Positions 2,500 through 54,113 of a stretch of 64,000 nt of DNA are shown in pieces; positions within the stretch are counted from its first letter, which is position 1, and every line of letters begins with the position of its first letter. A model generated the notes under the pieces. That model saw only the letters and a list, made by a program, of their open reading frames with translations. It was not told where the DNA came from and ran no database searches. The position numbers were made by a program, and so were the translations under genes. Source of the DNA: Pseudomonadota bacterium (lineage in GTDB: Bacteria; Pseudomonadota; Gammaproteobacteria; Steroidobacterales; Woeseiaceae); assembly GCA_022572185.1 (NCBI GenBank), contig JACZWL010000003.1:1-64000 (forward strand), in the 5' to 3' direction.

Positions 2500-2871
2500 A
2501 TGTTAAATCGCCGAAACTACGACACGGTGGCTTTCGATGTCAGGGAGAACGCAACGATGCTGTTCTTCGCCAAGACATCCGAGACGGGCGATATCGATGA
2601 TTACCTGCTGCTCATGCGTGCCGAGGGAGAGGAATTCGACGAGGCACTTTATGTCGAGATAAACGAGCGGCAGTTCGCCGGCCACAACATGATTTCCGAA
2701 GCAAGATTGACTGGAAACATGTTGACGCTCGAGCTGCGCGAACCTGCTGTGGAGTTGGACGGCGCGAGCGAGATCGTCCTCACCTATGACGAGACTCCGG
2801 AAAACCAGGCCAGTATCGAAGCTGGAGTGTTTCGTGTTCTCGGCAACACCTTGGTGGGAGGCAACGCCTGA
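2500..2871 (+). CDS. small protein with possible Imm10-like fold
   Basis: A 123-residue soluble, acidic protein with no signal peptide or membrane segment. The order of elements (D-Y-L-L-L-M-R, then Y-V-E-I-N-E-R-Q, A-G-H-N, a strand pair LTGNMLTLELREPA and a C-terminal I-E-A-G-V-F-R-V-L) resembles the layout I associate with Imm10 polymorphic-toxin immunity proteins, but the match is from memory and weak. No toxin gene lies next to it. The frame is open from an earlier ATG at 2449; the first 17 residues from there look unlike coding sequence, so ATG 2500 is preferred. It lies 12 bp before the DUF1272 gene and may be co-transcribed with it. Confidence 0.55.
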   Translation: MLNRRNYDTVAFDVRENATMLFFAKTSETGDIDDYLLLMRAEGEEFDEALYVEINERQFAGHNMISEARLTGNMLTLELREPAVELDGASEIVLTYDETPENQASIEAGVFRVLGNTLVGGNA

Positions 2872-2883
2872 GCAATCCCGCTG

Positions 2884-3111
2884 ATGCTTGAACTGCGGCC
2901 AAATTGCGAAAACTGCGATCGCGACCTGCCGCCTGAATCTAACGATGCAATGATTTGTTCATTCGAGTGTACTTTTTGCAGGCAATGTGTCGACAAGGTG
3001 TTTGATGGCATTTGCCCGAACTGCGGCGGTAACTTCGGGCCGAGGCCCGTGAGGCCTGTCGCGTCGCTGATGGAGCATCCGGCTTCGATGCAGCGCATCA
3101 CGCGGAACTAG
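2884..3111 (+). CDS. DUF1272 zinc-ribbon-like protein
   Basis: A 75-residue protein that matches DUF1272 almost along its whole length: it starts with LELRPNCENCDRDLPP and continues with ICSFECTFC, CVDKV and GICPNCGGNFGPRPVRP. Eight cysteines sit in four pairs (C8/C11, C25/C29, C32/C35-type spacing and C-P-N-C), which is consistent with two zinc sites. Function of the family is unknown. The tail after about residue 60 is not conserved. It follows the small protein at 2500-2871 by 12 bp. Confidence 0.85.
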   Translation: MLELRPNCENCDRDLPPESNDAMICSFECTFCRQCVDKVFDGICPNCGGNFGPRPVRPVASLMEHPASMQRITRN

Positions 3112-3156
3112 CGGTCCATCAATATGACCTCGTTGGACCACTAGTCAGCGCCGATC

Positions 3157-3453
3157 ATGCCGTCCTGGAGTGTTTACTTGCTTCGCTGTGGGGACGGTAG
3201 CCTGTACACCGGCATTGCGACGGACGTATCAAGAAGAGTCGTAGAGCACAGGGAAGGTGAAATAGGAGCTAAATACCTTCGCGGGCGCGGCCCGCTGGAT
3301 CTCATCTTTCAACAGGAAATCGGCGATCGAAGCCTGGCTGCAAAGATCGAACACCGGGTCAAGCGGTTCCCGAAAGAATACAAAGAGGACCTCGGCCGAC
3401 TGCCGGGCCGTATTGAAGAATTACTGCAGCAGATTAGTCTGCAAAGCGACTGA
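3157..3453 (+). CDS. GIY-YIG domain endonuclease-like protein (YhbQ/UPF0213)
   Basis: A 98-residue stand-alone GIY-YIG domain. The signature is visible as V-Y-L-L-R-C then L-Y-T-G-I-A (residues 6-22), with the conserved R-x-x-x-H (R27...EHREG) and a C-terminal E-x-x-x-K-R-F helix. Stand-alone members of this size are typical of bacterial YhbQ/UPF0213 proteins, which are proposed to act on branched or damaged DNA. No partner gene is adjacent; the next gene is convergent and 15 bp away. Confidence 0.88.
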   Translation: MPSWSVYLLRCGDGSLYTGIATDVSRRVVEHREGEIGAKYLRGRGPLDLIFQQEIGDRSLAAKIEHRVKRFPKEYKEDLGRLPGRIEELLQQISLQSD

Positions 3454-5981: not shown

Positions 5982-6202
5982 GGTATTAACCCGTGCTGAC
6001 GACTTGTGTCGCAGTATATCTAAATCAGCCCGTCTATTTTCATCGCTCTTAGTAACGGTCCAGGTCAATAAATGTCAGGCTGCACAGATCGAAATGCGGC
6101 CACTGTCATTGGCGGCGGATTGGGGCTCCGACAGCAGGGCAACCAGCGTCTGAGTGTGACTCGTAGGAGCCAATTCTGGCGGGCGATCTTGCTATCGGAC
6201 GA

Positions 6203-6949
6203 CTAGGAAAAGCTGAGCTGGGCGCTCAGGTCTTTGCGCGTCTCTTCGTCAGTCAGCACCGCGGCGTTGACGGTCAGCCAAACCGCATCCCAGTCCTTGA
6301 TCTTGCACGGGCCGAACACGAATTTGGCAATGTAGCTGTTCAGGTCGCGAACATGGATTACGTTTTTCTCGAGCGGTGATGTGAACTGGACACTGCCGGT
6401 GAATACGACCAGATTAGCGACGGGAACCTTCGGTACGGCTTTTTGTAGCGCCCTCGTTCTGCCCTCATTCTGAATCATTGGATTCAAAAATTTTCGCCGG
6501 CGGATACCGTCCACATTCGTCCATTGTGGCTCATCCGGTCCGCCAAATACGACACCGTTGTAGTGTTTGGTCTGAATACATATAATTCCGCCGGATGTCA
6601 GAATAGCATGGTCTATTTTCGTCAGTCCGCCGTAAGCGCCGGGCAAAATGAAATCCTCGAGTACTTCGCGGCTCTTTTGCCGCAAAATTCTTCGGATGCG
6701 GCGCTTCCCGATCCTGGCGGTTACAAGCTTTGCAACGTGGCTGGCCGAAGCGCGAAAAAGGAGTGTTAGCAGCAGGGCGCAGGCGAGTGCTATCACGAAC
6801 ATCGCGGGACCGACATGCGTCAGGCCGGTCACTACTTCGCTGGCGGATTCTGCGGCCGGATCGACTGTCGCAGCTGGCGCTGCGTCGGACGCAAATGCCG
6901 GCATGGCTACCAGCCATCCAGACAGAAACGAAAGCAATCGACGAATCAT
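6203..6949 (-). CDS. membrane-anchored NERD-domain protein
   Basis: A 248-residue protein with a signal-like N-terminus (residues 1-20), a low-complexity Ala-rich linker, and a membrane helix around residues 48-66. Residues from about 98 match the NERD (nuclease-related) domain: ILPGAYGGLTKIDHAIL, then GIICIQTKHYNGVVFG and the WTNVDG...NPMIQNEGRTRALQ block, which carry the D and E-x-K-like core (here Q-T-K, with Gln where many members have Glu). The domain occurs in many DNA-processing and signalling proteins. Topology predicts the NERD part to be cytoplasmic. No partner gene is obvious. Confidence 0.8.
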   Translation of the reverse strand: MIRRLLSFLSGWLVAMPAFASDAAPAATVDPAAESASEVVTGLTHVGPAMFVIALACALLLTLLFRASASHVAKLVTARIGKRRIRRILRQKSREVLEDFILPGAYGGLTKIDHAILTSGGIICIQTKHYNGVVFGGPDEPQWTNVDGIRRRKFLNPMIQNEGRTRALQKAVPKVPVANLVVFTGSVQFTSPLEKNVIHVRDLNSYIAKFVFGPCKIKDWDAVWLTVNAAVLTDEETRKDLSAQLSFS

Positions 6950-51032: not shown

Positions 51033-51557
51033 ATGAATTTCAGAAAATCAATTTCAATATTTGTCTCGTTATTTGTTTTGACAGCCTGTGACCAGCCCGC
51101 ATCGGACACCGCCGGTCAGCTTACAGGTGCCGCGCCGGTCGCCGAAGAAACAGATCAAGAAGCAGAGTTACCGTTGGTGGAAATCACGCCCGGTCTTTCG
51201 ATGAAAATTTTGAAAGAAGGAGCCGGCGACACGGCCGAGAATGGCCAGATAGCCGTCGTGCATTACACGGGTTGGCTTTATGACGAAACAGCGGAAAACA
51301 ACAGGGGAGAGAAATTTGACAGCTCTGTTGACCGCGATGAGTATTTCAGCTTCATGCTGGGCGCCAGACGGGTAATACGGGGTTGGGACCAGGGTGTCGT
51401 TGGCATGAAGGTGGGAGAAACCAGAGAATTAACGATTGCGCCGGAATTGGCCTACGGAGAACGCGGGGCCGGCAATGTCATCGCCCCGGGCGCGACCCTG
51501 GTCTTTGAAATCGAACTGGCGGCGCTGCAGGGCACGGAACCGACCGCGTCGGAATAG
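51033..51557 (+). CDS. FKBP-type peptidyl-prolyl isomerase lipoprotein
   Basis: A 174-residue lipoprotein: signal with lipobox L-T-A-C (Cys near residue 19), a 40-residue acidic linker, then one FKBP domain (VHYTGWLYDETAENNRGEKFDSSVDRDEYFSF, RVIRGWDQGVVGMKVGE, LAYGERGAG, LVFEIEL). The active-site residues (Y, D, W, Y of the FKBP pocket) appear intact. It should act as a folding helper on the periplasmic side. It follows msrB by 85 bp and could be co-transcribed. Confidence 0.9.
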   Translation: MNFRKSISIFVSLFVLTACDQPASDTAGQLTGAAPVAEETDQEAELPLVEITPGLSMKILKEGAGDTAENGQIAVVHYTGWLYDETAENNRGEKFDSSVDRDEYFSFMLGARRVIRGWDQGVVGMKVGETRELTIAPELAYGERGAGNVIAPGATLVFEIELAALQGTEPTASE

Positions 51558-51705: not shown

Positions 51706-51736
51706 TTGACTCTGTAGTCACTACAAGGTTTACACT
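51706..51736 (+). promoter_or_regulatory. MerR-family promoter/operator with 19-bp spacer
   Basis: TTGACT (51706-51711) and TACACT (51731-51736) are 19 bases apart. The spacer holds the perfect dyad TGTAGT-C-ACTACA (51713-51725). An over-long spacer with a central dyad is the hallmark of promoters opened by MerR-family metal sensors. The expected transcript start, about 51743, is next to the ATG at 51744, implying a leaderless or nearly leaderless mRNA. Confidence 0.75.
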
Positions 51737-51743
51737 CCTGACA

Positions 51744-52193
51744 ATGAATGCGATCGTGGAAATTGAGACAGGGGTGGATGATGCCTCGCTTGCCGGACAG
51801 GTGTGGGAGAATCCACGCCTGGCAAGGGGACTGGGCTGGGTAAGCCTGTTCGCCAGCGCCGGCACGTGGATCTGCTGTGCTCTACCGATACTCCTGGTCA
51901 CGGTGGGCGCAGGCGCGATCCTGGCGGGCATCACCAGCCAGTTTCCCTTGCTCACAGCCTTGGGTGCACACAAGAACTGGATGTTCGCAATATCCGCTGT
52001 CCTCCTGCTGGCTGCGGCCGGGTTGACGTGGCGTTCAGGACAACGCTGTCCGGCAGACCCTGTGCTGGCCCGGCAATGTCAGCGTGTGCGGCGGTGGAAC
52101 AAAAGAGTCTTGTGGGTTTCGGTAATCGTCTGGTTCATCGGTTTCATGGCGGCCTATCTGGCGCTGCCCGTGAGAATATATTTTGATCAATAG
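51744..52193 (+). CDS. MerT-like inner-membrane metal transporter
   Basis: A 149-residue membrane protein with three or four helices. The first helix carries a vicinal cysteine pair, A-G-T-W-I-C-C-A-L-P, as in MerT, where it receives Hg(II) from MerP. A second cysteine pair lies in the cytoplasmic loop (R-C-P-A-D-P-V-L-A-R-Q-C). The final helix ends in LPVRIYF, like MerT. The cation need not be mercury. ATG 51744 is one base past the predicted transcript start; GTG 51771 is an alternative. First gene of a three-gene operon; the frame upstream (from 51627) is non-coding. Confidence 0.8.
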   Translation: MNAIVEIETGVDDASLAGQVWENPRLARGLGWVSLFASAGTWICCALPILLVTVGAGAILAGITSQFPLLTALGAHKNWMFAISAVLLLAAAGLTWRSGQRCPADPVLARQCQRVRRWNKRVLWVSVIVWFIGFMAAYLALPVRIYFDQ

Positions 52194-52207
52194 CAGGTAG
52201 GCACGTT

Positions 52208-52507
52208 ATGCGTCAGCTGTTTATCGTTGCGGTTTTCTTCTTCCTGTCAGCAGCGGTTGTCGGTGCCGATGAAACAGTCCTCGAGATCGATATCAATGGG
52301 ATGACTTGCCCGTTTTGTGTTTACAGCCTCGAGAGAGAGCTGGGCCGATTGAGCGAGGTAAAACAGGTATTGATCAGCCTGAGATCAAGCAAGGCCCGGC
52401 TTACCCTGAAAGAGGGTGCGCACATCGACGCCGACACTCTGCGGGAAGTCGTTCTGGAGGCGGGCTTCACACCGGGCGAAGTTCGGGACGTTTCGGAAGG
52501 AAGTTAG
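52208..52507 (+). CDS. MerP-like periplasmic heavy-metal-binding protein
   Basis: A 99-residue protein: signal peptide (about 1-20, cleavage near V-G-A) and one heavy-metal-associated (HMA) domain with G-M-T-C-P-F-C at residues 30-36. MerP proteins have the same plan and pass metal to the MerT pair. The second conserved region L-E-A-G-F-T-P is intact. It sits 14 bp after the MerT-like gene and its stop overlaps the next start by one base (TAGTG). Confidence 0.88.
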   Translation: MRQLFIVAVFFFLSAAVVGADETVLEIDINGMTCPFCVYSLERELGRLSEVKQVLISLRSSKARLTLKEGAHIDADTLREVVLEAGFTPGEVRDVSEGS

Positions 52508-53229
52508 TGAGGTCGCACCGCGCGTTCACCTGGCTAGTCGCACTGGTGTGCCTGGTCGGAGACTCGGCGCACGCCGGTGGACTGCGATCCCTCGTGGCGT
52601 TGCCGCTGGAGCCCGGCGGCATCGTCGCCCGACTTCAAATCATTGGGGCATCGAGCCCAGACAACATAACCGTTACGGGAACCGTATTGTACGGGCTGAC
52701 AACGCGTCAGACCTTGATTTTCAGTGTTCCTTACAGAGATCTGGAACGCGGCGACGATGGCTTTGGATATCTCACGGGCTTGTATCGTCGCACCGTGTAC
52801 CAACACGATGAACCCAATGCAACGCGTCGCATTGCAGTCATCGGCGGTCTTCGTGTGCCGACGGACAGCGACCTTGACCCACAGATTAGTGCCGGTCTGG
52901 TCGCAACGGTGTACAGGCAGCGAAGCGAATGGGACTTCGATGTCGTGTGGATGGAAGCGCTCGGACGAAGCGGTAACAACGCTCGATATGATGTTTCCTG
53001 GCAGTATCGTCTCACCCCGTCAGAGTATCCGGAATGGGGGATACCGACCGAATGGCAGTCGGTGATCGAATTGGGCGGCCGGTATGCGGAGGGAACTGAA
53101 ATGGTTCATCAGCTGACTGTGGGTGCGCTCTGGGTTCATCCAAGCTGGGTACTCGAAACGGGGATTATTCAGGACTTGAACGGCCCCGACACAACGTCGT
53201 TCTTGCTGGGTATTCGAAAACATTTCTGA
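52507..53229 (+). CDS. putative outer-membrane beta-barrel protein of the metal operon
   Basis: A 240-residue exported protein starting at GTG 52507, which shares its G with the preceding TAG. A signal peptide (about 1-22, A-H-A-G) is followed by alternating hydrophobic/polar strands (TLIFSVPYRDL, SAGLVATVYRQ, EWDFDVVWMEALG, ELGGRYAEG, LTVGALWVHPSW) and the C-terminal phenylalanine typical of barrel proteins inserted by BAM. Family not recognised by name. Placement after MerT- and MerP-like genes suggests an outer-membrane step for the same metal. Confidence 0.72.
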   Translation: MRSHRAFTWLVALVCLVGDSAHAGGLRSLVALPLEPGGIVARLQIIGASSPDNITVTGTVLYGLTTRQTLIFSVPYRDLERGDDGFGYLTGLYRRTVYQHDEPNATRRIAVIGGLRVPTDSDLDPQISAGLVATVYRQRSEWDFDVVWMEALGRSGNNARYDVSWQYRLTPSEYPEWGIPTEWQSVIELGGRYAEGTEMVHQLTVGALWVHPSWVLETGIIQDLNGPDTTSFLLGIRKHF

Positions 53230-53261: not shown

Positions 53262-54113
53262 CTACGGAAACGTTAACTGAAACTCTATGCGCCGGTTAAT
53301 CCGCCTTCCGGCAGCATCGTCGTTGCTCGCGATGGGTCCGGCCGAGCCCGCTCCATTAGCCGTCAGCCGCCGTGGCTCGATACCGCGCTCAATCAGGTAA
53401 GTAACGACAGATTTTGCCCGGGCCTTGCTCAGCTCATGGTTGGTGGACTCATTGCCTGTGCTGTCTGTATGGCCTGTTACGGTGATGGACACCAACGGGC
53501 AATCCGTGGCAATTTCTACGATTTCATCAAGCAGGCTCAACGCGTTGGTCCTGAGCCTGGCACTCGATTCCCTGAACTCCACGTTGCGATTATGCAGGGC
53601 CCTGGTAAACAGGTTTTCGCAAAGGCGACTGAACCGTGCCGATTTTTCCACGGGTACAACATTCAATTTCAGCCGCATGCCATACAACAAGGATTTGTTG
53701 ATTCTATCGACAGACGACGACCATGCGACGGTATCCGTGACGATGCCACGAATCCCGATATGCTGTGCGTCGATGAACGCCCTTGATGAATGTGTGTCCG
53801 CCATAGCGTGCAGTGTCGTGTCGGTTACAAGCGACCAACCGGGCGGCATCGGCGAGTGCCGTTGGACGTCGATCTCCAGTTCGACACCCGGGAAACGCCC
53901 GGCTGCAGTCTGACGCAACAGGGCCTCATGTGCTGTTGAGCTGACATACCCCTGGATGATCAATCGGGATTTGTTTCTCGTTATCGACAGGCCAAATGCC
54001 GGGTCAGGAGACGCATCGACCGACTCTTTTGTCGTTTCGTTTGAAGCAATGCTGCTCGTGAATGCAAGCAACAGAGCAGCGACGGCGAGAGCCGGATTGA
54101 CCGATTGCTGCAT
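53262..54113 (-). CDS. OmpA-family protein with BON-like N-terminal region
   Basis: A 283-residue exported protein. Signal peptide about 1-23. Residues 45-165 contain two segments that look like BON/ArfA-type domains (RLIIQGYVSSTAHEALLRQTAAGRFPG; RIKSLLYGMRLKLNV-like). The C-terminal domain (about 175-283) is OmpA-like with ITVTGHTDSTGNESTNHELSKARAKSVVTYLIERGI and the final R-R-I-E-F motif, which binds the peptidoglycan peptide. There is no beta-barrel, so it is likely a soluble or associated periplasmic anchor. It lies 6 bp after the coiled-coil gene and is probably co-transcribed. Confidence 0.82.
   Translation of the reverse strand: MQQSVNPALAVAALLLAFTSSIASNETTKESVDASPDPAFGLSITRNKSRLIIQGYVSSTAHEALLRQTAAGRFPGVELEIDVQRHSPMPPGWSLVTDTTLHAMADTHSSRAFIDAQHIGIRGIVTDTVAWSSSVDRINKSLLYGMRLKLNVVPVEKSARFSRLCENLFTRALHNRNVEFRESSARLRTNALSLLDEIVEIATDCPLVSITVTGHTDSTGNESTNHELSKARAKSVVTYLIERGIEPRRLTANGAGSAGPIASNDDAAGRRINRRIEFQLTFP

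Follow-up and report, generated by a model that had tools for sequence, protein, structure and literature searches.

What does an operon move across the cell envelope when it joins carriers of the mercury-resistance type to an apparent outer-membrane protein, in which direction does it move it, and which sensor controls it? These questions are raised by three genes in a 64,000-nucleotide stretch of DNA, hereafter the window (positions 1 to 64,000 of contig JACZWL010000003.1 in the Woeseiaceae assembly GCA_022572185.1). Our analysis indicates that the products of the three genes probably carry mercury, or a soft metal like it, through both membranes. We put at roughly one half the probability that the genes form a module, induced by metal and gained by horizontal transfer, for the transport of a soft metal, most likely Hg(II).

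A MerR-type promoter and two predicted metal-carrier genes

The promoter (51706-51736, forward strand) consists of a -35 element TTGACT (51706-51711), a 19-bp spacer (51712-51730) and a -10 element TACACT (51731-51736). A perfect dyad, TGTAGT-C-ACTACA, lies in the spacer at 51713-51725, and the MerR-type arrangement described in the initial annotation is borne out by the sequence. A sigma-70 promoter scan of this region gave no hit, as expected from a spacer of 19 bp. The operon has the MerR-type promoter of mer operons and no mercuric reductase gene in or near it; none was found in the window, and a MerA end lies on another contig, C13.

The three forward-strand genes are as tightly packed as first reported: the MerT-like inner-membrane carrier gene (51744-52193) is followed by the gene of a periplasmic HMA (MerP/CopZ-like) protein (52208-52507), and the barrel gene begins with a GTG at 52507. 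The start of the first gene is uncertain. Its ATG at 51744 lies only 8 nt downstream of the -10 element, and a message from it would therefore be nearly leaderless. The real start may be a GTG at 51756, 51774 or 51801, the last being the best fit to homologue lengths.

The MerT-like protein carries a CC pair in its first transmembrane helix and a C-x9-C loop. Its single sequence scores 16.5 bits against PF02411, under the cut-off of 32.9 bits; 19 of 23 homologues match this family at E<=1, the best at 1e-5. When the profile of these 23 homologues was compared with that of 14 canonical MerTs, the match was strong (probability 97.4, E 9.8e-12). The CC pair and the loop Cys pair are invariant in both sets and the CC pairs are aligned, with a loop Cys spacing that differs between the sets. 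This agrees with the MerT-type vicinal cysteines initially proposed, and identifies the first gene as a homologue of canonical MerT, with Hg(II) transport as its putative function. The HMA protein was also correctly recognised: it has a signal peptide and a GMTCPFC motif and passes the Pfam HMA model (31.1 bits, cut-off 24.8). Against MerP (TIGR02052) it reaches 25.8 bits, under the cut-off of 92.55, and CopZ models score above MerP models.

A predicted outer-membrane barrel as third component

The third gene (52507-53229, forward strand) encodes a protein with a signal peptide ending in AHA, a C-terminal Phe and no Cys in its mature part. Searches of the window protein against Pfam and NCBIfam gave no hit, including PF13557 (gathering score 22 bits), which matched only one of 33 family members, weakly (E 0.004); a PDB sequence search with the barrel profile gave nothing significant. 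An AlphaFold model built with 33 homologues has 12 strands (pLDDT 81, pTM 0.76), and its best matches among solved structures are FapF (Z 20.7) and the COG4313 channel 4rl8 (Z 20.1), with PcoB, a copper-resistance barrel (7pge), at Z 14.9. The third protein is thus a predicted 12-stranded FapF/COG4313-like outer-membrane beta-barrel, in keeping with the barrel-like strands first noticed, and the model and its fold matches rule out a soluble protein.

Residues that strand hydropathy places on the lumen side include many conserved Arg, Asp and Glu; no Cys, Met or His is conserved there, so that the predicted barrel would be a pore at most and not a thiol relay. Because its 7 conserved Arg stand alongside 5 conserved acidic residues, an anion pore for chloro-mercury complexes is supported neither way.

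A second operator copy points to a candidate sensor

The 3.14-Mb genome has two exact matches to TTGACNNTGTAGTNACTACA, one in the window (C17:51706) and the other at C62:68417, against a chance expectation of ~4e-4 estimated from 17 fixed bases. The second copy sits between a merR and a GDCCVxC gene on contig C62, in the order merR, operator, GDCCVxC gene (L016:6492-6701), MerT gene and lipoprotein gene; the MerT there scores 42.1 bits, over the MerT cut-off. Since merR and the GDCCVxC gene, both missing from the window cassette, share its operator on C62, the MerR encoded there is the obvious candidate sensor for the window operon. A sensor encoded elsewhere had been proposed, and this second perfect operator copy singles out a regulator for that role.

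The C62 MerR scores best against CadR-PbrR (115 bits), with MerR (112.8 bits) and CueR close behind, all under cut-off. Like the MerRs of homologous cassettes, it has Cys in place of the Ser found in this genome's CueR-like protein, as well as a C-terminal Cys pair, a pattern that we take to be that of divalent-metal MerR regulators. Two other regulators were rejected as sensors: the C55 MerR, which adjoins a copper-type P-type ATPase, and the C77 regulator, which adjoins an integration-host-factor-like gene, both without the operator. The gene after merR-GDCCVxC-merT on C62 (L016:7091-8380, G000 C62) encodes a predicted lipoprotein of 429 aa with a CGIC motif and no clear family hit, perhaps an additional partner in metal handling or redox.

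The start of contig C13 cuts a merA-like gene (184 of 465 positions, 240 bits, end LSCCAG), which is followed by a YHS gene, a barrel paralogue, an HMA gene and a MerT-like gene. The description of the operon as lacking merR and merA is right locally, as the window's contig yielded neither a MerR nor a MerA-like gene. It does not extend to the genome, where the C62 merR, the MerA end and paralogues of the three genes are present, links that hold only if the assembly binning is right.

The cassette is conserved in mostly marine bacteria

Scanning one genome per species revealed 35 loci homologous to the window cassette, from mostly marine Gammaproteobacteria. The carriers comprise Colwellia, Moritella, Photobacterium, Shewanella, Vibrio, Pseudomonadales, Thiotrichales, Piscirickettsiaceae and others, along with two MAGs of Campylobacterota. 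The cassette is also present on two Vibrio plasmids. The order MerT-HMA-barrel is kept in loci not cut by a contig end; MerT was not detected in one locus, L043. The trio thus occurs together in many genera, as the proposed co-occurrence check had sought, and chance or a local oddity is ruled out.

Most of these loci have a divergent merR and a GDCCVxC gene ahead of the trio, and absence of merR is not a trait of the family. The GDCCVxC gene is present in 32 of 39 carriers, the window being accompanied by several other loci without it. A MerR-type promoter with a 19-20 bp spacer precedes nearly all loci examined. The operator is of the type TTGAACCTATAGTNACTATAGGTTCTATACT in most of them, and TGGAGTNNACTCCA dyads characterise one subgroup without GDCCVxC. 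The usual half-sites are CTGTAGT or CTATAGT, as against the Hg-type CCGTAC. The Hg-type operator CCGTAC...GTACGG was found in two cassette copies of one genome (L054/L061), of which L061 has the operator TTGACTCCGTAC...GTACGG and a MerR of 149.3 bits, against a mercury MerR cut-off of 150.85. The outer-membrane channel looks like a real, apparently undescribed part of mercury-type systems.

Several further observations were made at individual loci. In G274 (L095:3401-4992) the cassette is followed by genes for a thioredoxin-like protein and for a membrane protein of the CcdA/DsbD type, which suggests upkeep of periplasmic thiols; a thioredoxin-like gene was seen again in L035, L045, L060 and L093. 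A Vibrio 'heavy metal-associated domain' CDS (L024:6048-6719, NZ_CP069194.1, WP_238935341.1) is annotated with a wrong-frame start, the true genes being MerT-like at 6013-6402 and HMA starting at 6414. In L021 (G032 C62, 1-3709), a C13-type barrel-HMA-MerT set lies between transposase-like open frames (109-594 and 2708-3352).

Signs of insertion at the window locus

The cassette is bounded on the left by an FKBP-type lipoprotein gene (51033-51557, forward strand) and on the right by a convergent OmpA-like gene (53262-54113, reverse strand). Only 15-35 bp separate the ends of the matches to these two genes in six same-family relatives (L139, L140, L142-L145); the window gap measures 1.7 kb and holds exactly the three cassette genes. 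These closely adjoining flanks, together with the rarity of any cassette match (3 of 40 relatives), point to acquisition by insertion. Composition gave no sign of recent acquisition, with a cassette GC of 0.56-0.59 versus 0.53-0.60 around it. Other genes fill the same gap in two relatives (L146:2595-3811 and L141:3422-4048), and it may be a preferred insertion spot.

Mercury linkage differs between barrel types

Two barrel types were distinguished, a close type and a distant type (COG4313/PF13557), most members of which pass PF13557. For the close type, MerA was over cut-off in 7 of 33 carrier genomes, no more than in the background (55/274), and Hg reduction is therefore not the general purpose of the close-type cassette. 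For the distant type, MerA was present in 9 of 13 carrier genomes versus 45 of 253 without the barrel (p = 1e-4), and the barrel lies within a few kb of merA in G316, G125, G270 and G072. The statement that mercury operons normally have no outer-membrane component accordingly needs restricting, as the distant type recurs near merA in other genomes.

Direct mercury links of the close type come from three sources: G274, an Arcobacter MAG (L044) and, via the C13 paralogues, this genome. In G274 a MerC-like gene and merA run divergently from the cassette, and merA has a canonical Hg-type operator, different from that of the cassette. L044:1117-6696 combines merA and one MerT-like gene with several HMA genes and barrels of both types; a stop codon interrupts the second of these barrels, and the MAG may have a binning error.

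Where the operon includes GDCCVxC, MerA was found in 1 of 26 genomes, versus 6 of 10 where it does not, counts that reflect few independent events (Fisher p 7e-4 by locus, 0.02 by genome). A tree check of this exclusion gave only 2-5 independent pairs and no significance. Because of this, and because many carriers are MAGs, a trade-off between MerA and GDCCVxC is suggestive and serves as a lead only. The GDCCVxC protein gave a low-confidence fold model and no significant PDB match.

Proposed mechanism and alternatives

The anatomy, operator sharing, conservation, predicted barrel fold and insertion were computed here; we infer which metal is carried, that it moves inward, and what GDCCVxC and the channel do. 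Judging by the shared operator, the C62 MerR would bind the window promoter and activate transcription on binding metal. The barrel would provide a path for the metal complex through the outer membrane, the CxxC of the periplasmic HMA protein would pick up the metal, and the MerT-like protein, given its conserved Cys pairs, would move it through the inner membrane by cysteine exchange. The cytosolic thiol acceptor could be MerA in some hosts and the Cys-rich GDCCVxC protein in others, and this genome has a gene of each kind, a merA end and a GDCCVxC gene beside the candidate sensor. A broader generalisation is tentative and, in our judgement, less likely than not to hold: that marine Gammaproteobacteria widely possess a mercury (or soft-metal) system independent of MerA, comprising a dedicated outer-membrane channel, MerP-/MerT-like carriers and GDCCVxC replacing mercuric reductase as cytosolic acceptor.

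Export and transport of another metal are the strongest rivals of an inward Hg(II) relay. Under export, GDCCVxC would load the MerT-like carrier from the cytosol, and the metal would leave through the HMA protein and the barrel, giving resistance without MerA. Most carriers lack MerA, and import by itself would harm them; the frequency of GDCCVxC (32/39 carriers) and the PcoB copper-resistance barrel among the fold matches (Z 14.9) fit as well. Yet the MerT proteins studied to date import Hg(II) (PMC4570782), the cassette encodes no energy source for export, and merA-linked versions of it exist; export is unlikely on this evidence.

The same module might instead carry another soft or borderline metal (Cu, Zn, Cd, Pb or Au), with its mercury linkage arising only through shared resistance islands. 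Another metal comes into question because the usual cassette operator is not of the Hg type and because the merA and cassette operators of G274 differ. The cassette operators presumably resemble those of CadR/PbrR/ZntR. The C62 MerR fits CadR-PbrR best, with MerR and CueR nearly equal and none over cut-off, the HMA protein is closest to CopZ models, and a multicopper oxidase and other copper genes adjoin L045, L060, L062 and G274. Against this stand the homology to MerT, the adjacency of merA and the Hg-type operator and MerR of L054/L061, and we regard another metal as improbable.

That the window copy is a decaying, non-functional remnant that lost merR and GDCCVxC is very improbable: its barrel has the longest end branch (1.8) and the regulator and GDCCVxC are missing locally, but all three frames are intact, the invariant barrel residues and Cys motifs are retained, the promoter is near consensus and several other loci also lack GDCCVxC.

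Comparison with known systems

The inward relay of a soft metal, our preferred reading, bears on a gap in mercury transport. To our knowledge, the usual mer schemes leave the passage of Hg(II) through the outer membrane open. A published scheme of mer diversity comprises inner-membrane and periplasmic carriers only, with no outer-membrane transporter (PMC8261052). A channel gene kept beside MerT-/MerP-like genes in many marine bacteria is a direct candidate for this passage. As MerA is not recognisable in most carriers, surveys that count merA would overlook most such systems.

No description of a MerT-HMA-barrel operon was found in the literature searched, whose coverage leaves out most subscription journals and preprints, nor did it yield a paper naming the GDCCVxC domain (seleno)protein (NF041374), which occurs in most homologous operons and on C62 and not in the window cassette. 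Individually, the parts are related to known families; we found no description in that literature of their combination with an outer-membrane channel dedicated to it, of its regulator or of how widely it occurs.

The barrel shares with the COG4313/PF13557 channels (Pput2725, PDB 4rl8; PMC4493636) and FapF (5o65) a 12-stranded fold, at Z ~20 over ~200 residues. Unlike those channels, close-type barrels are sub-threshold for PF13557, and whereas the known COG4313 channels and FapF are tied to hydrophobic molecules or amyloid secretion, the window barrel belongs to a metal operon. PcoB/CopB is likewise an outer-membrane barrel of a metal-resistance operon, but it has other operon partners, and its likeness to the window barrel is general barrel similarity only.

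With Tn21/Tn501-type merT/merP the operon shares a MerR-type promoter, a small CxxC periplasmic HMA protein, the vicinal CC in the first helix of MerT and a second Cys pair in the loop before its last helix. It differs in that its MerT- and MerP-like proteins fall under the Pfam/NCBIfam cut-offs, its MerT-like loop reads C-x9-C instead of C-x5-C, and its third gene encodes an outer-membrane barrel, with MerA usually absent and GDCCVxC in its place in most loci. Our reading of the operon is that it is a conserved and so far undescribed form of Mer-type transport that includes an outer-membrane channel of its own.
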